From the NCBI GenBank assembly GCA_019358835.1, contig JAHHIH010000001.1, positions 124,001-188,000 on the forward strand: a DNA stretch of 64,000 nt. The letters run 5' to 3'. Below are positions 4,926 to 24,408 of this stretch, one piece after another. The translations under genes and the position numbers were made by a program. Numbering within the stretch: position 1 is the first letter of the stretch; every line of letters starts with the position of its first letter. Under the pieces are notes generated by a model. It was not told the DNA's origin, did no database searches, and saw only the letters and a list, made by a program, of their open reading frames with translations. The stretch comes from Tildeniella torsiva UHER 1998/13D. Its GTDB lineage: Bacteria > Cyanobacteriota > Cyanobacteriia > Phormidesmidales > Phormidesmidaceae.

Positions 4926-5747
4926 TCAAGCCGACTTTTGAAAAAACAGCAGATGCTGCTCGGGCAGGCTGTCGTCGGTCTTAACCCAGTCCAGGCCCAC
5001 CTGGGCCATTTCGCGGCGCACCTGGGCCACGCTCATCTTGTGCAGCCGCTTGATCATAACCAGGGGGTTTTCGGCTTTGTACTCGGCTAGCACCACCCGC
5101 CCGCCGGGCTTGAGGGCCGCGACAACGCCCTCCATCACCTCGCGGGGGTTGGCAAACTCGTGGTAGGCATCGACCATCAGCGCCAGGTCAATGGAGCCCG
5201 GCGGCAAGTTGGGCCTGTCGGGCTGCCCCAGCACCAGCTCCACATTCTCAATGCCCTTGGCCTCTAGCTCGGCCTGGAGCATGGCTAGCATTTCGGGCTG
5301 AATATCCACGGCCAGCACCTTCCCTTGGGGCACAAGGGGCGCAATGCGGCGGGCGAAATAGCCGGTGCCAGCGCCAATGTCGGCCACGATATCGGTGGGG
5401 GAGAGGTCGAGGGCTGCGATCGCAATCTGAGGCCGCTCTTGCAGCGCTCGACTGGGGCGATCGAGCCAGCCAGCCCCCTGGTGGCCCATGGTTTGCGCAA
5501 TCTCCCGGCCTAGGTAGACCCGGCCAATGCCGTCGGCACTGGGGGTGACGGTTTGATACTCAGTACTGGCCTGGAGCGTCGCCGTTCCACAGGCAGTGAG
5601 CCCCCACAGCACGGCGACCAAGGCCAGGCCGCGCCAGAGCGGGGCGATTCCGGGACGGATACTCGTTCCGAGTCGGAGCCCGAACGCTTCGCGAATCGCA
5701 GCCCAAACGTTGTTTAGCTTCCGAAAATAGGAATCAGCGCCAGTCAT
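4926..5747 (-). CDS. Class I SAM-dependent methyltransferase, probable lipoprotein
   Basis: The 273-residue product has an N-terminal hydrophobic stretch ending in a lipobox-like LTAC (about residues 48-52). A Rossmann methyltransferase domain follows, with SAM motif I VADIGAGTGYFARRI, then LAVDIQPEML, and DLALMVDAYHEFANP plus LKPGGRVVLAEYK as later motifs. These are standard class I features; the substrate cannot be read from sequence. A membrane-anchored methyltransferase is unusual. The start at 5747 (MTGADSYF) is preferred, because the frame upstream is low-complexity repeat DNA. The next gene upstream, DUF2854, is on the same strand. Confidence 0.82.
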   Translation of the reverse strand: MTGADSYFRKLNNVWAAIREAFGLRLGTSIRPGIAPLWRGLALVAVLWGLTACGTATLQASTEYQTVTPSADGIGRVYLGREIAQTMGHQGAGWLDRPSRALQERPQIAIAALDLSPTDIVADIGAGTGYFARRIAPLVPQGKVLAVDIQPEMLAMLQAELEAKGIENVELVLGQPDRPNLPPGSIDLALMVDAYHEFANPREVMEGVVAALKPGGRVVLAEYKAENPLVMIKRLHKMSVAQVRREMAQVGLDWVKTDDSLPEQHLLFFQKSA

Positions 5748-5807
5748 AACGAAGTGTGTTCCCCAAGCAATTCCACCCATCCACCCACCTACACCATCCA
5801 CCCCAGC

Positions 5808-6395
5808 TCACGCCTCGACCGGGGCAGCCGTAGGCTCCAGCAGCGTCACCAATGCCAAATTCACCTGGTCTTCAGCGGGCTGGCTGAGTTCGGCACGCAC
5901 GCTGGGGCCAAAGAACGATTCAATTTTGGCTTTCTTCTCCACCCAGGTGGAGAAAGGCACCATCGACGAGTCAAATTCCAGCACCAGGGCATAGTTGCCG
6001 TCCACCTCGGCTTCGTGCAGGCCGCTGAGTTCAGGGCACTCTTGCCCCGAGGGGCTGAGCCCGAGCTTTTGCAGGGCGACATCGAGATGGGCTTCTTGAC
6101 CGTAGCGGTAGCGGGTAATATCTTGGCGCACCTGGTTTTGGGTGGGGGTAGCCTGCTCTTCGCGCAGCTTTAGCACCTCGGGCGAGGTGGGCTGAGTGTA
6201 TGGGGCTGGCTCTAGCTCAGCGGCCCGCAGCGCCAGCCCGCCCAGCAGCACCGGAATGCCGTAGAAAAACCCGACCAAATTGAGGGTGGAGTTGTCTTGA
6301 AAGTAGGCAATAAACCCAATGATAGTGAGCACCCCGCCCACCGCCAGCAGCACCAGACTCAGGTTGATTCGCCCTAACTTAATTCGCCCCAGCAT
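5808..6395 (-). CDS. DUF2854 thylakoid membrane protein
   Basis: A 195-residue protein of a family found in cyanobacteria and plastids. The first ~60 residues hold two membrane segments (LSLVLLAVGGVLTIIGFIAYF and LVGFFYGIPVLLGGLALRA). A soluble domain follows, with the signature RYRYGQEAHLDVALQKLGL. No enzymatic motif is visible and the molecular role is not known to me. The start at 6395 (MLGRIKLGRINLSL) gives the usual topology. It may be co-transcribed with the lipoprotein methyltransferase gene, across a short C/A-rich repetitive spacer. Confidence 0.85.
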   Translation of the reverse strand: MLGRIKLGRINLSLVLLAVGGVLTIIGFIAYFQDNSTLNLVGFFYGIPVLLGGLALRAAELEPAPYTQPTSPEVLKLREEQATPTQNQVRQDITRYRYGQEAHLDVALQKLGLSPSGQECPELSGLHEAEVDGNYALVLEFDSSMVPFSTWVEKKAKIESFFGPSVRAELSQPAEDQVNLALVTLLEPTAAPVEA

Positions 6396-6431
6396 TACGA
6401 CCCTCGGTGGAAAGATTACTTCTGACTATCA

Positions 6432-6545
6432 TGCCGTCTTGTGGGTGAGAAGGGTAGGGAGTGGGTGAGTAGGTGAGTAGGTGAGTGGATGGGTAGGTGA
6501 GTGGGTGGGTCACTGACACACCTACACCACCTACACACCCACTCT
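6432..6545. repeat. Degenerate short tandem repeat with complementary half
   Basis: The left part is a run of GTGAGTAG/GTGGGTGA-like units. The right part is C/A-rich (CACACCTACACC...CCCACTC) and roughly complementary to the left, so the whole could fold on itself. Related CCACCCATCC tracts occur at about 5767-5800 and inside cobN. It separates DUF2854 from the next gene on the opposite strand. Confidence 0.8.
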
Positions 6546-6605
6546 GCCCGATGCGCCTTGCCACAAAGTTGTCTATGCTGTCGGTGAAGAGTTTTAAGGC
6601 GGGCT

Positions 6606-6779
6606 ATGGAACTGCAAATGATTCGCGATCGCATTGCCACCATTCGCTCTAAGCGAGAGGCGCTGATTCAGCTGCTAGAGCAGCCTGACTTGGGCACCCT
6701 GCGCATTGATGTCAACCAGGCGATCGAGGAAATGGACGATCTGCTGGAAGAATTTGACCGCACTTTTCCGGTGGGATGA
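6606..6779 (+). CDS. Small acidic helical protein, 57 aa, unknown function
   Basis: ATG at 6606 and TGA at 6777-6779 encode 57 residues, preceded by an AAGGCGGG ribosome-binding-like stretch. The product is almost entirely predicted helix with heptad-like spacing (MIRDRIATIRSKREALIQLL, then VNQAIEEMDDLLEEFD), so it may form a coiled coil or bind a partner. I do not recognise the family. Codon use fits the neighbours, including a GCGATCGAG-type HIP1 relative. It starts a plus-strand run that includes the ferredoxin gene. Confidence 0.6.
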   Translation: MELQMIRDRIATIRSKREALIQLLEQPDLGTLRIDVNQAIEEMDDLLEEFDRTFPVG

Positions 6780-6910
6780 TAGGTTGAGATTTGGATTGCA
6801 ATCCACCCAATCCTAGTTCAGCGGCTGAGTTTTGCCGGTAGGAAAGCTCAAAGGTCTGAACTGGGCTGGCGATTCTTTAACTACATCACCTAAACTTCCG
6901 TCAACTCGCT

Positions 6911-7228
6911 ATGGCCACCAGCTACTCCGTCGAAATTCACCACCAGGGCACGACCCACACCATCACTGTTCCGGAAGACCAGACTATTCTGGCGGCGGCT
7001 CAGGCGGTAGGGCTCGATCTGCCGACCTCCTGCGGGGCGGGGGTGTGCACGACCTGCGCGGCTCTGGTGCTGGAGGGCGAGGTCGATCAGAGTGAGGGCA
7101 TGGGGGTGAGCACCGAGCTTCAGGCCGATGGCTACGCGCTGCTGTGTGTGGCTTTCCCGCGATCGGACATCAAGCTAGAAACCGAGAAGGAAGACATCGT
7201 CTACCAAAAGCAGTTCGGCCAGGGCTAA
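6911..7228 (+). CDS. Plant-type [2Fe-2S] ferredoxin with C-terminal extension
   Basis: A 105-residue soluble electron carrier. Cluster ligands are Cys41, Cys46, Cys49 (CGAGVCTTC) and Cys79 (GYALLCVAFP), the plant-type spacing. The body matches photosynthetic ferredoxins (VDQSEGMG, SDIKLETEKEDIVY). It continues about 10 residues past the usual end, resembling low-abundance paralogues such as FdC1 rather than the main PetF. The donor and acceptor cannot be assigned. It precedes a short conserved gene and a DUF3326 gene on the same strand, possibly an operon. Confidence 0.9.
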   Translation: MATSYSVEIHHQGTTHTITVPEDQTILAAAQAVGLDLPTSCGAGVCTTCAALVLEGEVDQSEGMGVSTELQADGYALLCVAFPRSDIKLETEKEDIVYQKQFGQG

Positions 7229-7268
7229 CCCCATACCGGAAAAGATTGATCTTTTTAGTGGGTAGATG

Positions 7269-7466
7269 ATGGCGCTGGCCACTCACTTTATTACTGTGGA
7301 TATCCATTTGGGAGAGGCTCAGGGAGATCTCGTTGGAGCGATCGAAGTGGCCCTGGCCGAGCGGGGCGAACCTCTGCGCTGGGCGATTACTCAGGTGAAT
7401 TCTGCCACCCAAACCGCCACGGTTGAAGCCGTGGTGACAACGCACTCTAATTCTGAGCTGCTATGA
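7269..7466 (+). CDS. Small conserved protein, unknown function
   Basis: The product is 65 residues (MALATHFITVDIHLGEAQGD...). One codon upstream gives an alternative ATG at 7266. The stop overlaps the next start as ATGA, so translation is coupled to the DUF3326 gene. The sequence looks like a single compact alpha/beta unit with no motif I can name. The overlap is the strongest evidence that it is real and works with its neighbour. Confidence 0.65.
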   Translation: MALATHFITVDIHLGEAQGDLVGAIEVALAERGEPLRWAITQVNSATQTATVEAVVTTHSNSELL

Positions 7467-8620
7467 ATTCTGCCAATCCGAGTCGTCGCCCCTATACGGC
7501 GGTGCTGGTGGTGCCGACGGGCATTGGGGCAGCGGTGGGGGGCTATGCGGGGGATGCGCTGCCGGTGGCGCGGGCGATCGCCTCAGTAGTCGATACTTTA
7601 ATTACCCACCCCAACGTGATGAATGGGGCGCAGCTCTACTGGCCGCTGCCCAATGCCTGCTACGTCGAGGGTTACGGGCTCGATCAGTTTGCGGCGGGGC
7701 GCTGGGGACTGAGCCCGGTGCACCGCAATCGCATTGGTCTGGTGCTAGATGCAGCGATCGAGGATGACCTGCGCTGGCGACACCTGCAAGCGGCGGATGC
7801 GGCTCGGGCCACCCTGGGCTTAGATTTAACCGACTATGTTGTTACCGATGCGCCCTTGGGGGTAGAGCTGAGGACGGCGGCCTCGGGGGCGACCTGGGGG
7901 ACGATTGGGCGGCCCGACAGTTTGCTGCGGGCGGCGGAGCGGGCGATCGCCGCCGGAGCCAATGCGATCGCCGTGGTGGCCCGCTTTCCTGAAGACACCG
8001 ATGCTGAAACCCTGCAAGACTATCGCCAGGGCCATGGGGTCGATCCCTTAGCGGGGGCCGAGGCGGTAATTAGTCATCTAGTAGTGCGCACTCTGCGGGT
8101 GCCCTGCGCTCACGCCCCTGCGCTGAGCCCGCTGCCGCTAGATCCGTCGATTTCGCCCAAGTCTGCCGCTGAGGAACTGGGCTACACGTTTTTGCCCTGC
8201 GTGCTGGCGGGGTTAAGCCGAGCGCCCCAATTCGTGACCGGGCCAGCGCTGGGCTACCCTGGGGGACCATCCAGCCCTACCCTCTGGGCCGACCAGGTTG
8301 ACGCTATTGTGGTGCCCGCCAGCGCCTGTGGGGGCAGCGCGCTGCTGAGTCTGGCGGGGCGATCGCTGGCGATCGCCGTCGAAGCCAATACCACTGCTCT
8401 AGAGGTCAGCCCCGAAGCCCTGGGGGTATCGGCGGTGCGGGTGGCCTCTTACCTAGAGGCCGTGGGCTTATTAGCGGCCCATCGAGCCGGGGTTCATCCC
8501 CAGGCGCTGACGGCGCAGATGCAGCAGCTCAAGGCCCTGGGCTCTCCCCTAGGCGATTCTTCCTTTGGGCAGATAGAAAACTCGCCCCAGATCTCTACGA
8601 TTGCACCTAGAGGAGGCTAA
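7463..8620 (+). CDS. DUF3326 family protein
   Basis: A 385-residue protein of a family common in cyanobacteria with no established role. Recognisable parts are the glycine-rich opening VVPTGIGAAVGGYAGDALP, the segment THPNVMNGAQLYWP, and a long C-terminal half rich in Ala, Leu and Val. No signal peptide or clear catalytic motif is seen. It is translationally coupled to the 65-residue gene before it, and the ferredoxin gene lies just upstream, which hints at a redox-linked function. That link is inference from position only. Confidence 0.78.
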   Translation: MNSANPSRRPYTAVLVVPTGIGAAVGGYAGDALPVARAIASVVDTLITHPNVMNGAQLYWPLPNACYVEGYGLDQFAAGRWGLSPVHRNRIGLVLDAAIEDDLRWRHLQAADAARATLGLDLTDYVVTDAPLGVELRTAASGATWGTIGRPDSLLRAAERAIAAGANAIAVVARFPEDTDAETLQDYRQGHGVDPLAGAEAVISHLVVRTLRVPCAHAPALSPLPLDPSISPKSAAEELGYTFLPCVLAGLSRAPQFVTGPALGYPGGPSSPTLWADQVDAIVVPASACGGSALLSLAGRSLAIAVEANTTALEVSPEALGVSAVRVASYLEAVGLLAAHRAGVHPQALTAQMQQLKALGSPLGDSSFGQIENSPQISTIAPRGG

Positions 8621-8809
8621 TGTCTGACACTGCCAGCCCCTAGGAAAATGCGAGACCGCAAACTAATCGCGATCGCATTACTCCTTCAATAGAGGCATGG
8701 CTAGAAGCAAGAGCGTCATCCCAATATCCCTTGATCTGTTCTGGCTACGAAGTTGACTCTTGGGTGAGGCCGATTGACCTAGCCTCCGCTGTTGTCACAG
8801 GAGCATGTT

Positions 8810-9241
8810 ATGAGCAAGCGTACCGTCAACGTTCTCCTCGTCGAAGACGATGAGGTCGATGTGATGAACGTTCAGCGGGCCTTTAAGCGCAACCGCATCG
8901 AGAACCCTTTATATGTCGCCAACGACGGTTTAACCGCGCTAGACATGCTGCGCGGCAACGACTATGAGCCACCGTCGGTGCCAGAGCATCGCCGTCTCGT
9001 GCTGCTCGACATCAATATGCCCAAGATGAATGGGCTAGAGTTTCTCCAAGCGCTCCGACAGGATGAATCGCTCAAATCTACGCCAGTGGTCGTCTTAACC
9101 ACCTCCGATGCCGACCAAGACCGCCTCGAAGCCTACCGATTGAACGTGGCAGGTTATATCCTAAAGCCAGTTACCTTTTCCATTTTTTCGGAGGTAGTGG
9201 CGTCCCTCAACCAGTACTGGACGCTGTGTGAAATTCCTTAA
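8810..9241 (+). CDS. Single-domain response regulator (Rcp1-like)
   Basis: A 143-residue CheY-like receiver with no output domain, of the Rcp1 type that pairs with phytochrome-class kinases in cyanobacteria. It has the acidic cluster VEDDEVD, phosphoacceptor Asp67 in LLDINMPKMNG, the Thr of VVLTTSDAD and the conserved Lys in YILKPVTF. The start at 8810 follows AGGAG by a normal distance; a TTG at 8792 in the same frame is less likely. It abuts a receiver-histidine kinase gene, so a phosphorelay between them is likely. Confidence 0.88.
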   Translation: MSKRTVNVLLVEDDEVDVMNVQRAFKRNRIENPLYVANDGLTALDMLRGNDYEPPSVPEHRRLVLLDINMPKMNGLEFLQALRQDESLKSTPVVVLTTSDADQDRLEAYRLNVAGYILKPVTFSIFSEVVASLNQYWTLCEIP

Positions 9242-9290
9242 TCAGACCCACTGGACGCCGCCGTGGGTAGCAGAAGCAGGGGCTGAGCGG

Positions 9291-10559
9291 ATGGGTGAAG
9301 CGCTAGAGATTCTGTTGGTAGATGACGATGCCGTCGATCGCATGGCCATCTGCCGCGCTCTCGATCGCGCAGATCTCCCCGTCAACGTAACTGAGGTGAC
9401 CAGCGCTGAGCAGGCAATCGCCAACCTCAACAGCCGCACCTACGACTGCGTTTTTTTAGACTACCGCCTGCCCGAGCAAGACGGCCTGTCGCTGATCCGT
9501 CAGTGGCGGGCCGAGGGCGTGACCATTCCGCTAGTGGTGCTGACCGGCCAGGGCGACGAGCAAATTGCCGTTGACCTGATGAAGGCCGGGGCCAGCGACT
9601 ATCTGGTCAAAACCCGCGTCTCGCCCGATCGCCTGGCGCTGCTGTTGCGCAACGCCCTGCGCATGTATGAAGTGGAGCGGCGCGAGGCCAAAGTTATGGC
9701 CCAGCTTCAGCAGACCAACAAACTGCTCACCCAGCAGAATGAAGAGCTAGAGCGCCAGCGTCGCTACATCGAAGACCAGAACCTCAAGCTACTAGAGGCC
9801 TACCGGGTGAAGTCGGAGTTTTTGGCCACGATGTCCCACGAGCTGCGGACGCCGCTCAATGCAATTTTGGGGTTTTCGCAGATTCTGGACAGCCAGTCGA
9901 AGGGGCCGTTGACCACCCACCAAGCGGAGATGATCAAGCGCATCTTCGCCAACGGCAAAAATTTGCTCAACCTGGTCAACGACATTCTTGATCTGTCTAA
10001 GCTAGAGGCCCAGCGGCTAACCCTGAGCCTGACCCAGGTGAATCTCCATGGTCTGGTGCGCTCTACGCTGTCAGACTTGCGATCGCTGGCCGACGGCAAA
10101 GCACTCACCCTAGAGAGCACCCTCCAGCTCGACGACCCGATAGTAGAAAACGACGAACATCGGCTGCGCCAGGTGCTCACCAATCTGGTGTCTAACGCCA
10201 TCAAATTTACCGATCGCGGCCAGGTGCACATCACCCTGGCCGAAGTCGCCCCCGATCGCATTTCCCTCACCGTGGCCGACACTGGCATTGGCATCGTCAA
10301 AGAGCAGCTGCCCCACATTTTTGAGGCCTTTCGCCAGGTTAATCAATCCATTCGCCGCCCACACCCCGGCACCGGCCTAGGGCTGGCCATCGTCTACTCG
10401 CTAGTGATGATTATGGATGGCACCATTGCCGTCAGCAGCGAACCGGGGCGGGGAACGACCTTTGTCGTGACGCTGCCCCGGCGGATTTCGCCGCTGCCGG
10501 AGACCCAGACCCCAGACCCTGATCTCAAGCCCAGGTTCAATGGCTTAGGCCCTGAGTAG
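9291..10559 (+). CDS. Receiver-histidine kinase (response regulator/HisKA/HATPase_c)
   Basis: A 422-residue cytoplasmic signalling protein with no membrane segment. Order of parts: receiver domain (about 5-125, VDDDAVD and Asp57 in VFLDYRLP), a coiled linker (130-172), HisKA with His183 in MSHELRTPLNAIL, and HATPase_c with N box VSNAIKFTD, G1 DTGIGI and G2 GTGLGLAI. The input is probably phosphotransfer to its own receiver. The start at 9291 is chosen; a GTG at 9228 would overlap the preceding regulator gene by 14 bp. The pair looks like one phosphorelay module. Confidence 0.87.
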   Translation: MGEALEILLVDDDAVDRMAICRALDRADLPVNVTEVTSAEQAIANLNSRTYDCVFLDYRLPEQDGLSLIRQWRAEGVTIPLVVLTGQGDEQIAVDLMKAGASDYLVKTRVSPDRLALLLRNALRMYEVERREAKVMAQLQQTNKLLTQQNEELERQRRYIEDQNLKLLEAYRVKSEFLATMSHELRTPLNAILGFSQILDSQSKGPLTTHQAEMIKRIFANGKNLLNLVNDILDLSKLEAQRLTLSLTQVNLHGLVRSTLSDLRSLADGKALTLESTLQLDDPIVENDEHRLRQVLTNLVSNAIKFTDRGQVHITLAEVAPDRISLTVADTGIGIVKEQLPHIFEAFRQVNQSIRRPHPGTGLGLAIVYSLVMIMDGTIAVSSEPGRGTTFVVTLPRRISPLPETQTPDPDLKPRFNGLGPE

Positions 10560-10679
10560 GCGGGGGCCAGCCCTGGCTTGAGGCGGTTCCAGCACCATCC
10601 TCGCTCCTCTGAACAAAGCCGCCATCTATTTGGGTTGGCAACGTGGGAAAATAAGGTTCGCATTTTTGGGAAATTGCCT

Positions 10680-11957
10680 GTGAAAGCTCTCGTGGTCGGC
10701 AGCGGTGGCCGTGAACATACCCTGGCCTGGTCGCTACTGCGATCGCCCAAAATTACCGAAGTGGTCTGCGTACCGGGCAACGGCGGCACCGCCACCCTGC
10801 CCCACTGCCGCAACCTGGCCATGGCCCCCACCGACTTTGAGGGCATCGCCCGCTTTGCCCTGGTTAACAACCTAGAGCTGGTGGTGATCGGCCCCGAGCA
10901 GCCCCTGGCCGAAGGCATTACCGACTACCTGCAAGAGCAGGGGCTCAAGGTGTTTGGCCCCTGCCAGGCGGGAGCGCAGATCGAAGCCAGCAAAGCCTGG
11001 GCCAAGGCGCTGATGGTCGAGGCGGGCATTCCCACTGCCCAAGCCGTCGTGTTTGAAGACGAAGCCGCCGCCCTGGCCTACCTAGAGCAGCAGGGTGCCC
11101 CCATTGTAGTGAAGGCCGACGGGCTGGCGGCGGGCAAGGGCGTCACCGTAGCCCACACCCTAGAGGAGGCCATTCAAGCGGTCAAAGATGCCTTTAGCGG
11201 CAAGTTTGGCGCGGCGGGCCACCAGGTAGTGATCGAAGAATTCATGACCGGCCAGGAGGCGTCGGTGCTGGCCATTACCGACGGCAAGACCATTCGCCCT
11301 CTGGTGCCAGCCCAAGACCACAAGGCCATTGGCGAGGGCGACACCGGCCCCAATACTGGCGGCATGGGAGCCTACGCCCCGACCCCCGTGGTCTCCCCTG
11401 AGATTATGGAACGGGTGCAGAAAGAGGTGCTAGAACCGGCGATCGCCACCCTACGCCGCCGGGGCATTGACTATCGCGGCATTCTCTACGCTGGGCTGAT
11501 GATTACCCCCGAGGGGGTGCCCAAGGTGGTGGAGTTCAACTGCCGCCTCGGCGACCCCGAAACCCAGGCCGTGCTGCCCCTGCTTGAAACCCCGCTGGAA
11601 GAGGTGATGCTGGCCTGCATTGAAGGGTGGCTCGACACCCTAGAGCTGAAATGGAAGCCGGAGGCCGCCGCCTGTGTGGTAGTAGCCGCCGAGGGCTACC
11701 CCGACAAATATCCCAAAGGCATGGAAATTGTCGGGTTCGAAGCGGCCGCCGCAACTGGGGCGCTGGTGTTCCACGCGGGCACCCGCCGCCGGGGCGACAC
11801 CATTGTGGCCGACGGCGGGCGGGTGCTGGGGGTGACGGGCCTGGGCGACACCTTTGAGGCGGCGATCGCCAATGCCTACGAGGCGATCGACAAAATTTGT
11901 TTTGAGGGCATGTACTATCGCCGCGACATCGGCTACCGGGTCAAGGGGCTCTCGTAA
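10680..11957 (+). CDS. purD: Phosphoribosylamine-glycine ligase (GAR synthetase)
   Basis: This enzyme joins glycine to 5-phosphoribosylamine using ATP, the second step of purine synthesis. A 425-residue ATP-grasp protein starts from GTG at 10680: [17 protein letters not shown] is the exact family N-terminus, whereas the 34 codons upstream look non-coding. Other motifs are [43 protein letters not shown] and [11 protein letters not shown]. The length is normal. It appears to be a single gene with no pur neighbours. Confidence 0.96.
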
Positions 11958-11994
11958 GTCGAGCTTTGCCACAGGGCGATCGCCATGCCAACAG

Positions 11995-12023
11995 GCTGTT
12001 TGGGCCAGTTCGGCCCCAACAGC
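11995..12023 (+). terminator. Hairpin after purD
   Basis: GCTGTTTGGGCC pairs with GGCCCCAACAGC around a 5 nt loop (one internal mismatch), 38 bp after the purD stop and before the convergent gene. No T-tract follows, so termination is plausible but not shown. Confidence 0.5.
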
Positions 12024-12057
12024 GACGAAGCCAAGTCCGTAGGCTCTTGGAAAGTAA

Positions 12058-13401
12058 CTAAACTGCGAAACCAGTCTTTTGCTTTGGTTTGCCCTTCGAC
12101 TTTTTCTTCGATGAGCTTTGCCCCACCTCTTGCAGCGCCTCTTGAAACAAGTCGTTCAGATGGATAGGCACGCTGGCAATCTCTGGCAGCGTCGGTTCCA
12201 ACGGCTTGCCCGCCTCGACTAACACATCGTCTAGATCGTCAGGAGTCAGCCCTGAGCGGTTAAGGCAGCGCTCCAAAGACGCCATCAGCGGCACGGCATT
12301 GTCTTCAGCAAAGCATCGCCAAACGTAGGCATTGACCGCATCTTCCTTGAGATATTTTTGAATTAGCTTGTCTACCTTCGCTACAGATTCCTCATCGGTA
12401 GCTTCAAACAACTGGGTTAAGCGCACGTAGTCTTTTAAGAACGTCTGGCCCCAGCGGGGATGCACAAAGACCGTAACCGCCTCTGCCCGACGCAGTTCAT
12501 CGGGCAGATTAAGGGGCGGCATGGCCATCTTAATCGCCTGATCGTCTTTGAGCAGACGGCTCACCTCGCGACCGTCTTCGCCAAACGACTCTACTGACTC
12601 AGCCACCTCTTCCTCAGAGAGGCCCGACTGAGCCACCAGTTCTTTCAACGACTTAGACCCATCCACCCCAATCTCTTCTAATCGACGCTGGGTCGTAATC
12701 TCTTGATACTCTTTGAGCTTTTTGTTCAGCTCGTACCCAGACAGCGTGACTCTGTCTCCACCAAAAAAATCGACAAAATCGTGGTGGTAGCGCTCTACAG
12801 ATTGCCAAGCTTCGGTTAGCAGCTCAGGGGCATCTCCATAGAGGTAGTTGGGAAACCAGTTTTTAAAGTTGCCAATGGCTACAGCTAATTTAGGCTTTCC
12901 CAGCTTTCCCAACAGCATCAGGGGACCTGAAAATGTCCAACTATCTCCTGCCTCGGGTGACAGGCGGGTGACGACAATTTCCCCTGGGCTTAGCCGAGAT
13001 AGTTCTGCTGCCGCCTGCGCCCCATCAGGTTCTACCCAATAGTGCTTTTCGGTTAGCCAATTCATTAATTCGTAGCGCTCTGCTTCTACCTGGAGCACTT
13101 TAAAGAGGCCATTAAAGGTGTTCTGCCAACCCTTAACTAGAGCCTGATCATCGGCAGCCAGGTCGGGCTGATGTTGCAAAAAAATATCCAATACCGATCG
13201 GCTAGAGACCTGGCCCTCGGTTAAAAACATATCAACGGCTAGATCGGATCGACTGATACCCTGAAGGTTAGTCGCTGACCAATGCTTTAGGCGATCGGCA
13301 CTGTAGGTTTCTAAAGCGGTTGCTAAATCGCCCTCGGCATCTAACACAAAGGCCCGTAGGGTTTGCTTTAAAGCATTGGACTGTTTGAGTTGTTCGTTCA
13401 C
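12058..13401 (-). CDS. Conserved protein of unknown function, basic C-terminal tail
   Basis: A 447-residue, mostly helical protein starting from GTG at 13401 (VNEQLKQSNALKQTL). The longer frame to a TTG at 13485 runs through a terminator hairpin and is rejected. I do not recognise the family. Visible features are an acidic middle (LSEEEVAESVESFGEDGREV), a region of alternating helices, and a Lys-rich tail (SSSKKKSKGKPKQK) that could bind nucleic acid or phospholipid. No signal peptide or membrane segment is seen. It is convergent with purD. Confidence 0.7.
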   Translation of the reverse strand: MNEQLKQSNALKQTLRAFVLDAEGDLATALETYSADRLKHWSATNLQGISRSDLAVDMFLTEGQVSSRSVLDIFLQHQPDLAADDQALVKGWQNTFNGLFKVLQVEAERYELMNWLTEKHYWVEPDGAQAAAELSRLSPGEIVVTRLSPEAGDSWTFSGPLMLLGKLGKPKLAVAIGNFKNWFPNYLYGDAPELLTEAWQSVERYHHDFVDFFGGDRVTLSGYELNKKLKEYQEITTQRRLEEIGVDGSKSLKELVAQSGLSEEEVAESVESFGEDGREVSRLLKDDQAIKMAMPPLNLPDELRRAEAVTVFVHPRWGQTFLKDYVRLTQLFEATDEESVAKVDKLIQKYLKEDAVNAYVWRCFAEDNAVPLMASLERCLNRSGLTPDDLDDVLVEAGKPLEPTLPEIASVPIHLNDLFQEALQEVGQSSSKKKSKGKPKQKTGFAV

Positions 13402-13464
13402 GCGTAGCCTTATTGACACAACCGAAAGAAAGCCGATCAAGCAGAATTTTACTAGAAAAAAGAA

Positions 13465-13496
13465 TTTAGGGCAACTTGCTGACAAGCTGCCCTAAA
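13465..13496 (-). terminator. Rho-independent terminator for the GlsB/YmgE-like gene
   Basis: TTTAGGGCA-A-CTTG pairs with CAAG-C-TGCCCTAAA (13 of 14 positions) around the loop CTGA. Read on the minus strand it is followed by TTCTTTTTT. It lies downstream of the gene at 13635-13904 and just before the start at 13401, so it ends that transcript or attenuates read-through. Confidence 0.85.
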
Positions 13497-13634
13497 TCAT
13501 CACTATTAGATAAGTTTGTCGCCGTAGAGCATCATAGTCCTAGGCGATGAACCAGAGTTTTAGTCCTTGGAAAACGCCGTCTCTAGTCTGGCTAATCTGT
13601 GCTTACCTGTTTTGCTAGCAGAGACCGATAGCGA

Positions 13635-13904
13635 TTAAACAGCCCGCTTAGACACTGCGTAGTAGATAAACAGAGCGACAATTGCGCCCAGAACCGCGAT
13701 CACTACACCACCAATGCTGAGACCCGTCGCCGCGAGGGTAAACGTTCCTGTGGTGAGCAAAGTGTAAAGGCTACCGCCAACGAATGCACCAATTACGCCT
13801 AAAATCAGCGTGCCCAAAAGACCACCGCTCTGATGCCCAGGATAGATGGCCTTAGCAATTGCGCCAGCAATCAAACCCAATACGATCCATGCCAGAATAT
13901 TCAT
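13635..13904 (-). CDS. GlsB/YeaQ/YmgE family membrane protein
   Basis: An 89-residue protein with about three membrane segments and the family's glycine-rich pattern: AWIVLGLIAGAIAKAIYPG, then GGLLGTLILGVIGAFVGG, then a C-terminal VVIAVLGAIVALFIYYAV. Members are stress-induced small inner-membrane proteins (transglycosylase-associated by name) with no proven activity. It is monocistronic, with its own terminator at 13465-13496. Confidence 0.9.
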   Translation of the reverse strand: MNILAWIVLGLIAGAIAKAIYPGHQSGGLLGTLILGVIGAFVGGSLYTLLTTGTFTLAATGLSIGGVVIAVLGAIVALFIYYAVSKRAV

Positions 13905-14521
13905 GCGTCCTCTCCAAAATGTTTAGTAGGCAATCGGTGCCTTTTCCTTACAATTAAACAATAGCGACTGGTTCCAGCTAGCGAGACCATCTAAAGATAT
14001 AGTTAGCCTTTGTCTAAAGGAATACCTGAGGTGTGGGCGGCTAAAATTGCTGGCGCTTGATTGGGCTTTGCCGCGTTTTACCTACTTATTCCCCAGGCGT
14101 TAATCGTCAAGCAGAGCTTAGATCGTCGGGCAGATGAACGATTCAATGCCAGCGCGGTGGGAAACCCCGCGAAGGTGTCTAGGCACCGGTTCCTCTGCCG
14201 CCTAGGCACTATTTCTAATTTAGGCAACAAACCGTTGGCTTCCCTGGCTTTGAGGCCAAACTCTAAAGCGGCTCGGTTGGGTTCATCGCGCTGGGGCAGC
14301 GGTGCTTTACTGGGCGAAGGGCTCACCTGACAAAAGGTTCAGGGCTGAGTCAATCAGGGCATCTTGAGACGATGCATCTCGTCAACATTTTTTGCTGGAT
14401 TGTTCTGCTTTGGCCACTGGCGCGTGCTGTCAGTGCCGAGATCGATTCACTTGCTATGGCGCAGCACCAGCGGGCCGTACAGGGCGGCAACTGACAGTCT
14501 TACGCTTAGAGGTCTAACCCC
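13905..14521. other. 617 bp intergenic region without a convincing gene
   Basis: It separates the divergent GlsB-like gene and the ketosynthase-fusion gene, so promoters for both should lie here. Short frames on both strands near 14061-14330 lack family resemblance and conflict with each other. Hairpin-like pairings are present around 14150-14215 (CTAGGC...GCCTAG, with GCGG...CCGC nearby). I see no tRNA or known ncRNA signature. Confidence 0.6.
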
Positions 14522-16444
14522 ATGCCGTCTTTCACCCCCTTTGACCGGGCTCAACCCCGAGCGGCTTACATTACCCACATTGGCAAATGTCTGCCGGGAG
14601 ACCCGATCGCCAACGATGAGATGGAAGCCTATCTGGGCCAGGTGGGCGATCGCCCCTCCCGAGTCAAGGCCCGCATTCTCAAAAGCAACGGTATTCAGCA
14701 GCGCTACTACGCCCTCGATCGCCAGCAGCAGACCACCCTCAGCAACAGCCAGATGGCGGCAGCGGCGGTGCGAGATGCACTGGCCCAGGCTGAGCTAGAC
14801 CCCAAGGCCATTGACCTGTTGGCCTGTGCCACCACCTGGGCCGACCTGCTGGTGCCGGGCTTTGCCAGCATGGTGCATGGCGAACTGCCGGAGCTGGCCC
14901 CGGTGGAGGCGACCTCTCACCAGGGGGTGTGCTGCGCTGGCGTGGCGGCGCTCAAATACGCGGCGGCCCAGGTGCAGCTGGGTCAAAAGCGGCGGGCGAT
15001 CGCGGTGGCCTCAGAACTGGCCTCGCGGTTGTTTAAACACACCCGGTTTGAGGCCGAAACCGCCGCCGGAACCGCCCTGCCCTTTGACACCGAGTTTCTG
15101 CGATGGATGCTGTCGGATGGCGCGGGGGCCTGCTTGGTCAGCGATTGCCCCAGTGCCAACGGCCTCAGCCTCAAAATTGAGTGGATTGAGTCGGTTTCCC
15201 ACGCCAATTCCCATCCGCTGTGCATGTACGCCGGGGTTGACAGCCCCACGGAGCTGACCAGCTGGATGGACTTTCCCGATCAGGGGGCGGCGGCAGCGGC
15301 GGGAGCGCTCAACCTGCGCCAAAACATTCGCCTGCTCGACCAGGTGGTGCAGCTGGGTGTAGAGGGCTGGATCAGGCTGATCGAAGCCGGTCGGGTGCAC
15401 CCCGACCAGGTGGACTGGCTGCTGTGCCACTACTCGTCGCATTTCTTTCGCAGTCAAATCATCAATTTGCTCGAACAGGCGGGCTGCATGATTCCTGAGG
15501 AGCGGTGGTTTACCAACCTCTACACCAGAGGCAACACCGGCTGCGCCTCGATCTACCTGATGCTGGAGGAGTTGTTTAACTCGGGCAAGCTGCGGCCAGG
15601 GCAGCAGATCTTTTGCTTCGTGCCCGAAAGTGGTCGGTTCACCACCGCCTACATGCTGCTAACGGTGGTGGAGGCAACCGGGCCAAGCCAGGGTTCTGAA
15701 GCCGGACCGCTGTTGGCCGCTACGGCGATCGCCCCTCCCGACCATCTCCCCTCGGCAACCGCTGCCCTGGAGGTTGAAACCTCCGAGTCTACGGTTTCTG
15801 AAGCGCTGCTGCGCCAGTTGATGCTGGTGTGGCTGACCTTTGAGCGAGAGCTGCGGTCTGTCCCCATCGTCAGGCGACTGCACCGGGGAGAGTTTACCCT
15901 CGCAGACTACCGGGCATTGCTGCGGGCCTTGCGCCCCCAGGTGGTCGATGGTGCCCGGTGGATTGCCCGAGCCGCGTCGAACATGACCGACTTTGAGCTG
16001 CGATCGCACCTGATTGGCCACGCCCGCGACGAGCACCGCGACTTTCAAATGCTGGAGCGCGACTACGTCTCGGTCGGGGGGCAGCTCGAGGAGATTCTGG
16101 CGGCTGAGCAAAACATTGGTTCAGAGGCTCTATCTGCCTTTATTTTTCAGCGCGCCTCCCGCGAAAACCCGATTGATCTACTGGGCAGCATCTTCATTGT
16201 GGAAGGGCTGGGCAACCGCATGGCAGGCCAGTGGGCCGCGCTCATTCAACAAAGCCTGGGGTTAGATAAGACCCAGATCTCCTTCCTCAGCTACCACGGC
16301 GAGAACGACGAGGCCCATGTGAAAAAGCTCGATGCCTTTCTCAACGCCGACTGGATGACAGCGGCGATCGCCGCCCGCATTGTCAAAACAGCCCAAGTCA
16401 CCGCCCGCCTGTACCGCCTACAACTGGAAGAGATTGACCTATGA
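14522..16444 (+). CDS. KASIII-like ketosynthase fused to a heme-oxygenase-like diiron (HDO-type) domain
   Basis: A 640-residue two-domain protein. Residues 1-385 form a thiolase-fold KASIII/OleA-like domain: Cys138 in VCCAGVAAL, His303 in LLCHYSSHFF and Asn338 in RGNTGCAS match the FabH Cys-His-Asn triad. A Pro/Ser/Thr/Ala linker follows (385-425). Residues 426-640 are helical with candidate metal ligands His500, Glu504, His505 (GHARDEHRDF), Glu561 (VEGLGNRM), and His592, Glu594, Glu597, His599 (YHGENDEAH). This resembles the TenA/heme-oxygenase-like diiron oxygenase superfamily that includes UndA. The fusion suggests an acyl chain is condensed and then oxidised. That activity is inference; the ketosynthase part is well supported and the HDO part moderately. 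The stop overlaps the next gene as ATGA. Confidence 0.82.
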   Translation: MPSFTPFDRAQPRAAYITHIGKCLPGDPIANDEMEAYLGQVGDRPSRVKARILKSNGIQQRYYALDRQQQTTLSNSQMAAAAVRDALAQAELDPKAIDLLACATTWADLLVPGFASMVHGELPELAPVEATSHQGVCCAGVAALKYAAAQVQLGQKRRAIAVASELASRLFKHTRFEAETAAGTALPFDTEFLRWMLSDGAGACLVSDCPSANGLSLKIEWIESVSHANSHPLCMYAGVDSPTELTSWMDFPDQGAAAAAGALNLRQNIRLLDQVVQLGVEGWIRLIEAGRVHPDQVDWLLCHYSSHFFRSQIINLLEQAGCMIPEERWFTNLYTRGNTGCASIYLMLEELFNSGKLRPGQQIFCFVPESGRFTTAYMLLTVVEATGPSQGSEAGPLLAATAIAPPDHLPSATAALEVETSESTVSEALLRQLMLVWLTFERELRSVPIVRRLHRGEFTLADYRALLRALRPQVVDGARWIARAASNMTDFELRSHLIGHARDEHRDFQMLERDYVSVGGQLEEILAAEQNIGSEALSAFIFQRASRENPIDLLGSIFIVEGLGNRMAGQWAALIQQSLGLDKTQISFLSYHGENDEAHVKKLDAFLNADWMTAAIAARIVKTAQVTARLYRLQLEEIDL

Positions 16445-17349
16445 CCCACATCCCCGTGCCCCACAACCGGCAAGACCCCAGCCATTGGGATGCCATCTAT
16501 GCCGACTGGGCCATTCCCCTCGACCCCACCGCCAAGGCCTACATGGTCAAAGACCTGCAAAGCTGGTCGCGCTGCTACCTGCTGCTGCCGATCAAGCTCT
16601 TTGCCAACCTGGCTATGGCCTTGATTATGACGCTCAAGCGGCTCTTGCCCTTTCAGTTTCGTAACTACTGGCTGATGCACCAGCTGGCGGTGTGGTTTCT
16701 CAACACCTTCACCACCCCCGAAGCCTGCTACCTGATCGTGCGCCACTTTGCCATTGGCTCTAATATTGTCAATTTTTTAATCGACAACGGCCCCGACCCG
16801 ACCCTGCCCCACGCCACTCTTTACCCTCGCCGGGTAGAGGATCTGGCCGCCAACGCTTTTTTAGAGCATGACATCAACCTCTACAACTTTGTGCTCGACT
16901 ACCACCGCGCCCAAGCGCAGCACCCCAACTGGCTAGAGCATGTGCGTCAGCGAGGGCTCAGCTATGGCGGCATTCGCCCGGTATCGGTCGAGATCGACAT
17001 CACCCGACGGGGTTGGCTCCAGGTGCTCGATATGGAGTCCTCCCTGGAGCTGTTCAAAATCTGCTATTCCCTCTGGGTCACCAGCGCCGAGTTTGAGCGG
17101 GCGGTGCTGTCCCTTCAGTTTGACGAAAGCTTTGCCCTGTACTTTAGCCGGGTAACGGGCGACTACGCCTGGAACCACACCGTGAGTAACCGCCATCCCC
17201 TAGCCCCCAACAGCGCCTTTGGGTCGGCTCGCAATCTGCTGCTGCACGGCCTGGCGTCGGAGTCGCTCCAGCGGTATCTGGAGCTAGCTATGGCGGATAG
17301 GCAAGAGCTGGTTGATGGGGCGATCGCCCAAAGTCATACGGTCTCCTAA
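16441..17349 (+). CDS. Unknown partner protein of the ketosynthase-HDO fusion
   Basis: A 302-residue protein whose start overlaps the preceding stop (ATGA), so the two are co-translated. It has no clear signal peptide. One moderately hydrophobic stretch (about 40-75, LLLPIKLFANLAMALIMTL) could sit on or in a membrane. Histidines and acids are clustered (HQLAVWFL, VRHFAIGSN, LEHDINLYNF, DYHRAQAQH), which could form a metal or substrate site. I do not recognise the family. From position, it probably works on the same lipid-like substrate as the fusion enzyme. It could be a membrane-associated reductase, acyltransferase or scaffold; nothing in the sequence decides this. Confidence 0.8.
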   Translation: MTHIPVPHNRQDPSHWDAIYADWAIPLDPTAKAYMVKDLQSWSRCYLLLPIKLFANLAMALIMTLKRLLPFQFRNYWLMHQLAVWFLNTFTTPEACYLIVRHFAIGSNIVNFLIDNGPDPTLPHATLYPRRVEDLAANAFLEHDINLYNFVLDYHRAQAQHPNWLEHVRQRGLSYGGIRPVSVEIDITRRGWLQVLDMESSLELFKICYSLWVTSAEFERAVLSLQFDESFALYFSRVTGDYAWNHTVSNRHPLAPNSAFGSARNLLLHGLASESLQRYLELAMADRQELVDGAIAQSHTVS

Positions 17350-22632: not shown

Positions 22633-23121
22633 ACGGGGTTCTCTATAAGACTTTAAGGTAGCGTCTTGCCGTTGAGGAAAGGGGCGCGCTGGGGTAGAGA
22701 TTGGTTGGCAGCGGTTGCGTTAAAGGGTCTGCGCTAGATCACAGCCTGTTGGAGATCCCCCCAAATGCGCCTCATAGCCGTCGCCAAATCGGTTAGGACA
22801 TTCTGCACAATCCCTTGGAGCGATGGCTATACGCCAGTGCGCTGCCCCAGTTTTTGCCCATGGGAGTGACTTATGTCTTAAGCGCAGTGGCAAACGCTAT
22901 AAAAGGGAGACTTCAAAACTTGGATACCCCTCGTCTTATAGAGGCTGCTGGCTATCCACAATGTATGGAGACAGGGGAGAGCATCCGGGGATAAAGCTAT
23001 AGCAGATGCAGATTCAAACAGTTTCTAGCGGTTTTTTAAAGCAATGCAATATTAGTGCCCTGAGCTGCGCTCGCTGGGGGCGGTGGGGGAATGCTTAAGG
23101 AGCCATTCCTCAAGGTCAGAC
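22633..23121. other. 489 bp intergenic region
   Basis: It lies between the divergent AI-2E transporter and the C1 peptidase. It should carry both promoters and a long 5' leader for the peptidase. No gene, repeat family or clear hairpin with a T-tract was found. An AT-richer stretch around 23005-23050 contains a run of Ts. Confidence 0.5.
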
Positions 23122-24408
23122 ATGTTTACGCAGAACCGTAAGTTTCGCATTGGCGGTTATCAGCCGGGGCAAAAGCCGGACGACGTTAAGCATCACCAGA
23201 TTGGTCGGTTTCAGAAAGAGGAACTGCCGCCCCGAGTCGATCTGCGTCACCACATGACCGAGGTAGAGGCGCAGGTGGGCAACAGCTGTGTGGCCAATGC
23301 CTTTGTGGGGGCCTACGAATACCTGGCCAAGCGCGACCTGGGCGATGCCGGTGACGTGAGTCGGTTGTTTGTCTACTACAACGCCCGATCGCAGACCGGC
23401 AGCCACAACGAAGACGCTGGCACCCAGATGTACTGCGCGATCGAAACCCTGATGCAGCACGGGGCCTGCTCCGAAGACCTCTGGCCCAACGACGAAGAGC
23501 TGATCTTCACCGAGCCCGACACCGGAGCCTACGACCACGCTTCCAACTTCAAAATCATCGAAGCCGAGACCATCGACACCGATCTAGACCTCTGGCGGCA
23601 TACATTAGCTGAGGGCTACCCGATCGCCTTTGCCCTCAACACCTTCGAGTCGTTTGACGAGGCTACCCGCAACAAAGGCCGCGTGCCCCAGCCCAAACGC
23701 TCCGACAACGTGCGCGAAACCCACGGCTGGCACGCCATGCTCTGCGTCGGCTACTCCGACAAAGACCGCTTTTTTATTGTGCGCAACTCCTGGGGGCCAG
23801 AGTGGGGCGATCGCGGCTACTGCTACATTCCCTACGACTACGTCATCCACGACGACTACAACGGCCACGATTCGTGGATCATCAAATCCCTCAGCGAACT
23901 CGACTTTAGCGCCGAAGTTTGGGAAGAGGACGAGTCATTCTTTGCCGACGATTGCTCGCTGCTACTCTACGACTTCTATATTCACACCGAAGACCCTGAG
24001 GGCTTTACCGACGCCCTCGCCGCCCTCTGCCTCACCTACGTTGAAACCGAAGACGACTACTACTTCGACTACGACTATAACGAAGACGACGGCAGCCCCT
24101 ACCTGCTCAATATTCTCAACTTTGACCTCAGCGTCGAAGACGGCACCGAATTTGTTGCCGAGCTAGACGCCCTCTGCCAAGAATACGCCGTCGATGAATC
24201 CTACGGTTTTGGCTACGGCAGCAGCGACGAAGCAGAAGCTGAGGAATCCGAGGAAGAGGAGGAATCTGAAGAGGAATCGTCTGACGAAGACTATTCCGAA
24301 GAAGAATCCGCAGACGAAGAATCAGAGGAGGAAGAGTCCGAAGAAGCGGAAGAGGAATACTCTGAGGAAGACGAGGAGTCTGAGGAAGAGTACACCGAAG
24401 AAGAATAG
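23122..24408 (+). CDS. Papain-like (C1A) cysteine protease with acidic Glu/Ser tail
   Basis: A 428-residue protein. The papain tetrad is present: Gln51 and Cys56 in QVGNSCVANAF, His204 in HGWHAMLCVGY, and Asn222 in VRNSWGPEWGDRGYCYIP. The catalytic Cys lies near the N-terminus, so there is no long inhibitory prodomain and no signal peptide. After the protease (to about 255) comes a duplicated acidic module with YDFYIHTEDPEGFTDAL and YLLNILNFDLSVEDGTEF segments. Residues 367-428 are almost only Glu, Ser and Asp. The start at ATG 23122 is preferred to an upstream start at 23083 that adds 13 residues. The tail could bind cations or a basic partner. Confidence 0.88.
   Translation: MFTQNRKFRIGGYQPGQKPDDVKHHQIGRFQKEELPPRVDLRHHMTEVEAQVGNSCVANAFVGAYEYLAKRDLGDAGDVSRLFVYYNARSQTGSHNEDAGTQMYCAIETLMQHGACSEDLWPNDEELIFTEPDTGAYDHASNFKIIEAETIDTDLDLWRHTLAEGYPIAFALNTFESFDEATRNKGRVPQPKRSDNVRETHGWHAMLCVGYSDKDRFFIVRNSWGPEWGDRGYCYIPYDYVIHDDYNGHDSWIIKSLSELDFSAEVWEEDESFFADDCSLLLYDFYIHTEDPEGFTDALAALCLTYVETEDDYYFDYDYNEDDGSPYLLNILNFDLSVEDGTEFVAELDALCQEYAVDESYGFGYGSSDEAEAEESEEEEESEEESSDEDYSEEESADEESEEEESEEAEEEYSEEDEESEEEYTEEE

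Follow-up and report, generated by a model that had tools for sequence, protein, structure and literature searches.

A predicted ketosynthase-oxidase fusion coupled to a DUF6999 protein in Tildeniella torsiva: a putative DarB-like lipid unit with a different set of partners

The cyanobacterium Tildeniella torsiva UHER 1998/13D carries, within the 64,000-nucleotide stretch of contig JAHHIH010000001.1 analyzed here (assembly GCA_019358835.1, positions 124,001 to 188,000, forward strand; hereafter the window), a compact unit in which a ketosynthase is fused to a domain resembling the heme-oxygenase-like diiron oxidases (HDOs) and is coupled to a second protein of the Pfam family DUF6999. The open reading frames (ORFs) of the fusion and of its partner share an ATGA stop/start overlap, just as an initial annotation made from the nucleotide sequence had described. 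The genes on either side have an unrelated, housekeeping or regulatory look (their translations were read by eye, without a family search), and the unit is therefore taken to consist of two genes only. Its features, in window coordinates, are the following.

14522..16444, + strand: ketosynthase-HDO fusion gene, 640 residues (ORF and translation; Pfam, NCBIfam and PDB matches)
14522..15685, + strand: ketosynthase domain, residues 1-388 (NF005293 over residues 15-383; StlD 5gk0 over residues 13-383)
14930..14932, + strand: Cys137, nucleophile of the triad (C in 85/85 aligned ketosynthases)
15428..15430, + strand: His303 of the triad (84/84)
15533..15535, + strand: Asn338 of the triad (84/84)
15686..15796, + strand: Pro/Ala-rich linker, residues 389-425 (sequence and length vary across the alignment)
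15797..16441, + strand: predicted heme-oxygenase-like oxidase domain, residues 426-640 (structure model, Foldseek, VIA)
16019..16042, + strand: helix with H500, E504, H505 and D507, putative first metal-ligand cluster (85/85 each)
16202..16204, + strand: Glu561, putative helix-2 metal ligand (85/85)
16292..16318, + strand: Y591 and H592-x3-D596-x2-H599, HDO helix-3 motif (Y591, H592, D596 and H599, 85/85 each)
16441..16444, + strand: ATGA stop/start overlap of the two genes (ORF calls)
16441..17349, + strand: DUF6999 protein, 302 residues, helical, with a single hydrophobic stretch, about residues 45-65 (PF22523; structure model; hydropathy)
16741..16746, + strand: invariant Arg101-His102 of DUF6999 (87/87)
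16867..16872, + strand: invariant His143-Asp144 of DUF6999 (86/86)
17245..17262, + strand: invariant His269 and Glu274 of DUF6999 (85/85)

The N-terminal domain belongs to the KASIII/FabH superfamily, as initially proposed (Pfam ACP_syn_III_C, 1.1e-9), and the closest NCBIfam model is that of StlD/DarB, NF005293 (439.9 bits); StlD itself is the top PDB match (5gk0, E 1.8e-83), the best chain titled 3-oxoacyl-ACP (acyl carrier protein) synthase 3 standing at E 6.5e-16. Across an alignment of 85 sequences, gaps excluded, the Cys/His/Asn triad is fully conserved; the FabH-type triad first put forward is right in His303 and Asn338, but its nucleophile is Cys137 rather than Cys138, the latter position being variable (C in 63, A in 20 and S in two sequences), and StlD reads GACAAG around the nucleophile position. 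By sequence, the nearest relatives of the window ketosynthase are thus StlD/DarB-like enzymes, a subfamily that makes cyclohexanediones and resorcinols, and by analogy it may catalyze a cyclizing condensation to a 1,3-cyclohexanedione. Identities as OleA, PqsD or a type III polyketide synthase were rejected on match scores, and the stretch RWFTNL, shared by the window protein and StlD, was dropped as a marker since it occurs in only 17 of the 85 sequences.

The C-terminal domain matches Pfam Haem_oxygenas_2 over residues 474-631 (2.8e-7), and an AlphaFold2 (AF2) model of residues 426-640, built on a 14-sequence alignment, reaches a mean predicted local distance difference score (pLDDT) of 90.1 and a predicted TM-score (pTM) of 0.87. 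Foldseek relates this model to 3dde (E 1.0e-7), CtCADD 8vag (5.6e-7) and UndA 4wx0 (2.5e-5), while VIA aligns it with 3dde at Z 26.1, with CADD 8vag at Z 23.9 and with TenA, PqqC and heme oxygenases at Z 20-22, HrmI also being among the structural matches; at the sequence level, the profile of the domain finds only 3dde below E 0.001 in the PDB, and UndA is absent from the five sequences retrieved up to E 10. The model clearly predicts a seven-helix heme-oxygenase-like fold, in agreement with the HDO-type fold first suggested, a fold that by itself cannot separate an oxidase from a TenA-like function. Among the PDB entries that share this fold is 3bjd of Pseudomonas aeruginosa (Z 20.3), whose title of putative 3-oxoacyl-ACP synthase looks either wrong or an echo of a related fusion annotation.

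The three His/Glu-rich clusters singled out by the initial annotation (GHARDEHRDF, VEGLGNRM and YHGENDEAH) do hold residues that never vary: H500, E504, H505, D507, E561, Y591, H592, D596 and H599 are invariant in 85/85 sequences, a split protein from Pseudoalteromonas included. In the HDO AetD, the helix-1 ligands are D76-x2-H79, to which helix-2 and helix-3 ligands are added, according to the excerpted text of PMC11611611. E561 and H592-x3-D596-x2-H599 correspond to those helix-2 and helix-3 ligands, whereas helix 1 presents E504-x2-D507, which has the spacing of AetD with an Asp for the usual His and does not fit carboxylate-x2-His, a mapping that is based on sequence spacing and on alignment with 3dde, not on coordinates. 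The putative metal site thus looks unusual, with an Asp in place of the helix-1 His and the invariant H500 and H505 close by, and we know of no HDO with a ligand set of the H-x3-E-H-x-D type. All in all, the conserved residues favor metal binding by this domain; of the diiron domain originally claimed, the metal-compatible residues stand, while the helix-1 site is non-canonical and the diiron center is to be taken as putative.

The 302-residue partner, at first deemed impossible to place, is in fact a member of Pfam PF22523 (DUF6999; E 1.7e-101, 339.3 bits for a cut-off of 27 bits), as are the corresponding proteins at three other loci (321.9 bits for L097, 230.3 for L073 and 244.4 for L071; L and G numbers are our handles for loci and genomes), and it is 91-94% identical to proteins of two Nodosilinea, one Leptolyngbya and one Phormidium tenue. 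Its AF2 model, built from 26 sequences, is helical (pLDDT 85.5, pTM 0.84). No substitution is seen at R44, R101, H102, N116, H143, D144, D197, D228, H269 or E274 in any of the 85-87 rows with a letter at those positions, a pattern suggestive of an active or metal site, and a hydrophobic stretch around residues 40-65 (hydropathy above 1.6 in six of eight rows tested) hints at contact with the membrane. Structural searches of the PDB with the model gave no Foldseek match below E 0.001 (best 1.0) and a best VIA Z of only 3.6, on receptors; the family profile reached E 0.56 at best among PDB sequences, which is not meaningful, and a PHROGs search gave no match. No paper naming DUF6999 was found in a literature search beyond whose reach lay most subscription papers and part of the preprints.

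The distribution of the three parts is what ties them to one another. Of 386 cyanobacterial genomes, nine contain DUF6999, each time with the ketosynthase and the HDO domain adjacent or within about 0.7 kb, and the HDO profile matches the same nine plus a tenth, G099, which holds a decayed unit (C1:5339891-5341501; L085, L151) with two in-frame stops in the ketosynthase, a shortened HDO domain and no DUF6999 found in the genome. A pattern-based scan of named genomes for DUF6999, which covers only relatives carrying one of two peptide patterns, yielded 66 loci (not 66 genomes, L067 and L072 being contigs of one metagenome-assembled genome, MAG, and apparently halves of one locus), and 60 of these have ketosynthase and HDO on the same stretch. 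Nodosilinea nodulosa PCC 7104 (L014) and Leptolyngbya sp. PCC 6406 (L039) are among the cultured carriers of the unit. Of the six other loci, L061 and L067 are cut by a contig end within DUF6999 or shortly ahead of it, L033, L056 and L062 come from genomes that have the HDO domain elsewhere, and in the genome of L070, a MAG, the HDO domain was not found. From the end of the ketosynthase to the end of the HDO domain the reading frame stays open in 59 of the 60 loci; the exception, L019 (7850-9994, from a MAG), has two in-frame stops within a long repetitive linker, and its two domains may be separate proteins.

The same picture emerges outside the cyanobacteria. The family of Longispora albida (G386), Micromonosporaceae, gave 34 strong HDO matches and one weak match in 150 genomes; in the 80 of them checked for DUF6999 (14 with a strong HDO match, one with a weak match and 65 without), DUF6999 coincides precisely with the 14 strong matches, the remaining 66 genomes having none. 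Three of 149 genomes of the acidobacterial phylum of G387 match the HDO profile as well, and every one of 20 fetched regions (19 of the 34 from Micromonosporaceae and one acidobacterial) holds ketosynthase, HDO and DUF6999 in this order by tblastn. On a plasmid of Pseudoalteromonas sp. THAF3 (L097) the three are separate consecutive genes, so that the fusion is dispensable while the grouping is retained. The recurrence of one gene order in Cyanobacteria, Actinomycetota, Acidobacteria and a gammaproteobacterium, with phyla beyond Cyanobacteria, Acidobacteria and Micromonosporaceae sampled through plasmid records and the pattern-based scan only, means that the arrangement is not due to chance. 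Distance matrices of the three parts agree accordingly (Mantel r 0.86-0.89 over 57 cyanobacterial rows and 0.85-0.94 over 25 others; 0.86 and 0.905, respectively, for ketosynthase against DUF6999). In these samples the three parts travel together almost without exception, and the notion of a dedicated partner is thereby upheld: far from being found mainly apart from the ketosynthase, DUF6999 shows near-perfect co-occurrence with it.

Clustering the ORFs of the 66 named loci and of 24 actinobacterial, acidobacterial and Pseudoalteromonas regions revealed no further gene common across phyla, with a gene picker that is weak for those 24 regions, missing GC-rich genes (it recovers DUF6999 in eight of them, tblastn in 20/20). 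Two families that accompany Microcoleus-type loci, one with members in 12 loci and one identified by eye as MsrA-like, were read as plain synteny among close relatives. Several loci show particularities of their own. In L097 the trio is flanked, in the same direction, by a His-rich protein of 185 residues, membrane-bound by eye (11439-11996), and by a lipoprotein-like protein of 634 residues (14643-16547), neither with a Pfam family above cut-off. A DUF922 gene (5.4e-47) lies between fusion and DUF6999 in L025 (9261-9872), L021 and L028 having ORFs of similar size there. L075, labelled as a Euryarchaeota MAG, is by eye almost like the acidobacterial L074 and probably owes its archaeal label to a binning error. 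Lastly, a plasmid of Pseudoalteromonas sp. HL-AS1 (L141, 4947-5636) carries a distant HDO-family gene (24% identity) that adjoins genes annotated as AMP-binding, short-chain dehydrogenase/reductase and thermostable hemolysin, a different biosynthetic setting.

The StlC/StlD pair is known, alongside DarA/DarB, as a system for dialkylresorcinol (DAR) synthesis. In Azoarcus darA adjoins darB and is named a DAR-aromatase (PMC3949708, in excerpt); the DarABC operon makes cyclohexanediones (CHDs) and DARs, the former being intermediates on the way to the latter (PMC4414361, in excerpt), and darB and darA expressed heterologously yield a DAR (PMC3992019, in excerpt). Clusters of this kind, bartoloside-like ones included, are reported from cyanobacteria in the excerpted text of PMC8406957. 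Our survey found an StlD/DarB-type ketosynthase in 12 of the 386 cyanobacteria, ten of them with the HDO domain (in one case in a decayed locus), whereas G076 and G093 match neither the oxidase domain nor DUF6999. These two have a gene for a 311-residue protein immediately upstream of the ketosynthase on the same strand, flavodoxin-like by eye in L155, which we infer to be DarA-like from its position and its Streptomyces homology; the homologous Streptomyces gene (31%, 3e-46) comes next after a plasmid ketosynthase that lacks the HDO domain. Conversely, of the 24 fusion genomes searched only G654 gave a DarA-like gene, located 2.5 Mb away from the fusion, and none of the nine fusion cyanobacteria of the phylum sample did. 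Given this reciprocal presence across the two cyanobacteria, Streptomyces and the 24 fusion genomes, the ketosynthases for which a partner was found have either a DarA-like gene or the HDO domain with DUF6999; the near-absence of the DarA-like gene from fusion genomes therefore leads us to read the unit as a pathway of the cyclohexanedione/dialkylresorcinol type in which HDO and DUF6999 replace DarA. As a side observation, L155 of G093 (5224-16220) contains, by eye, DarA-like, DarB-like, glycosyltransferase and ABC export genes together with a protein of 418 residues without a Pfam match, a cluster that presumably resembles those for bartolosides, and the gene lengths of L154 (G076) are similar.

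On these grounds we favor, with a probability of roughly 0.48, a three-component module in which ring formation is DarB-like, the HDO domain oxidizes in the place of DarA, and DUF6999 belongs to the same pathway. The ketosynthase would, like its subfamily, join two fatty-acyl-derived thioesters into a ring of the 2,5-dialkyl-1,3-cyclohexanedione type; the fused HDO domain, with a dimetal site (probably iron) and O2, would oxidize the nascent ring, bringing about aromatization and possibly ring hydroxylation, the assignment of DarA's job to it resting on the swap of partners; and DUF6999, placed here by co-occurrence only, might be a further ring enzyme or a membrane-side acceptor of the product. 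Where a Coq4-like gene lies nearby, oxidative decarboxylation would probably convert the ring further, into a quinone-type lipid. A bolder version seems somewhat unlikely, namely that one lipid pathway is common to Cyanobacteria, Micromonosporaceae, Acidobacteria and the gammaproteobacterium, in which an O2-using dimetal HDO with rearranged ligands acts directly on the ketosynthase ring and DUF6999 represents a helical metalloenzyme or ring modifier of a new kind, giving a dialkyl hydroquinone or quinone as a membrane redox lipid.

A number of observations weigh against the three-component module. The window ketosynthase narrowly misses the 450-bit cut-off of NF005293, its relatives score lower (415.1 bits for L073, 372.1 for L097 and 290.1 for L071), a cyanobacterial DarB without the oxidase domain passes at 557.8 bits, and on the DarB-resorcinol NCBIfam model the window protein reaches 384.5 bits for a cut-off of 550. 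The name DarA lacks model support, the 311-residue protein having no Pfam or NCBIfam match; the fusion genome G654 carries a DarA-like gene too; and three Bacteroidetes plasmid ketosynthases have neither partner annotated within 3-8 kb, in plasmid gene tables that are incomplete and with darA possibly lying elsewhere. The split Pseudoalteromonas oxidase has no Pfam match at E 0.01, although the family profile does detect it, and we know of no HDO that works as an aromatase. In the ketosynthase tree, moreover, the fusion ketosynthases are not one clade (three changes are needed) and the Streptomyces rows group beside the acidobacterial L138 (support 87/74), the cyanobacterial DarB and Bacteroidetes rows forming a separate clade (97/99); a single origin of the fusion, which we considered, finds no support in this tree.

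The alternative that survives best, though unlikely, is the oxidation of a linear lipid, whereby the ketosynthase would deliver a beta-keto acyl product for UndA-like cleavage or oxidation by the HDO domain, yielding an olefin, a ketone or an oxidized fatty lipid. The presence of UndA among the structural matches agrees with it, as does the fact that characterized HDOs use mainly fatty or amino-acid substrates in the excerpted text of PMC13108848. Nevertheless, the nearest solved ketosynthase is StlD, with only weak matches to 5vxd (0.00013) and 3row (0.00022), which we take to be OleA chains; the helix-1 motif is unlike carboxylate-x2-His and differs from that of AetD, the sequence profile does not reach UndA, and the reciprocal presence of the DarA-like gene is left unexplained. 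The OleA/UndA-type ketone or olefin chemistry of the initial annotation is hence not the one that we retain.

Less likely again is a quinone route, in which aromatization of the ring would be spontaneous or the work of DUF6999, with the HDO domain as a ring hydroxylase, leading to a dialkyl hydroquinone or benzoquinone redox lipid that the Coq4-like protein, in strains that have it, would finish. A Coq4-like gene with the motif HDxxHx11E occurs in the fetched flanks of 17 of the 66 named loci in three arrangements (upstream and divergent in 12, downstream on the same strand in four, upstream on the same strand in one), and strong genome-wide matches are confined to two of the 386 cyanobacteria, both with the fusion (Fisher p 4.8e-4, a value that ignores kinship); COQ4 itself performs the oxidative decarboxylation at C1 in coenzyme Q synthesis, as the excerpt of PMC11495197 has it. 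In the strains concerned, this neighborhood hints by analogy at a quinone-type end product. On the other hand, the gene was found neither in the genome of the window nor in 49 of the 66 named loci, its profile gave 0 matches in 21 regions from actinobacteria, acidobacteria and Pseudoalteromonas, weak matches occur in another three of the 386 genomes that have no fusion, and the Pfam model PF05019, with a cut-off of 22.9 bits, gives 17.6, 15.7 and no match for the three proteins, out of the 17, that were tested. Being absent from the window genome and from the 21 regions of other phyla, the Coq4-like gene is therefore regarded as an accessory in some cyanobacteria and not as part of the core.

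It is improbable that the HDO-fold domain has no redox role and is instead a TenA-like hydrolase, or serves for binding or as a scaffold to shape what the ketosynthase makes, the tailoring itself falling to DUF6999: TenA and PqqC, which are not known to need a dimetal site, align well with the model (Z 21-22) and the usual helix-1 His is replaced by Asp, yet E561 and H592-x3-D596-x2-H599 fit the HDO helix-2 and helix-3 ligands in all 85 sequences, in which H500, E504, H505 and D507 are invariant too. That the genes are merely linked in a conserved neighborhood, with separate functions and no shared pathway, is largely refuted and very improbable, for while DUF6999 stands apart from the fusion in three genomes and the gap between them exceeds 150 bases in 12 of 60 named loci, those three genomes keep the oxidase domain elsewhere, co-occurrence is exact across the 80 Micromonosporaceae genomes, clustering shows no other cross-phyla gene (with the weak gene picker noted above) and the ketosynthase and DUF6999 distance matrices agree.

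Elsewhere in the window, positions 23083-24408 encode a protein that is papain-like by eye, with a long acidic, Glu/Ser-rich C-terminal tail.

These findings give DUF6999, an unstudied Pfam family, a definite biochemical context in all lineages examined, and for resorcinol-type ketosynthases they suggest a second partner system besides DarA, probably dependent on O2 and metal. The product of the three-component module is probably an oxidized ring-lipid of an undescribed kind and, if the ring were taken to a quinone, the pathway would give cyanobacteria a new way of making a redox lipid. Our literature search, most subscription papers being outside its scope, returned no title or abstract among the matches listed on a fusion of an HDO with an StlD/DarB ketosynthase.

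Set against known systems, the unit shares with DarA/DarB the ketosynthase subfamily, the Cys/His/Asn triad and the tight coupling of a condensing enzyme to a partner gene, but 23 of 24 fusion genomes lack a DarA-like match and have the fused heme-oxygenase-like domain and DUF6999 instead. With the HDOs (UndA, CADD, BesC, AetD and SznF) it has in common the predicted fold, the helix-2 Glu and the helix-3 H-x3-D-x2-H, while the window protein differs from them in a helix 1 of the form H-x3-E-H-x-D, not carboxylate-x2-His, and in being fused to a ketosynthase. The neighbor in 17 of 66 loci resembles Coq4 in its HDxxHx11E, yet has a core of about 160-170 residues and stays below the Pfam cut-off, whereas the window partner is a clear member of PF22523, itself a family without described function. 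We class the unit as DarB-like but with other partners, rather than as a member of the DarAB or the UndA type.

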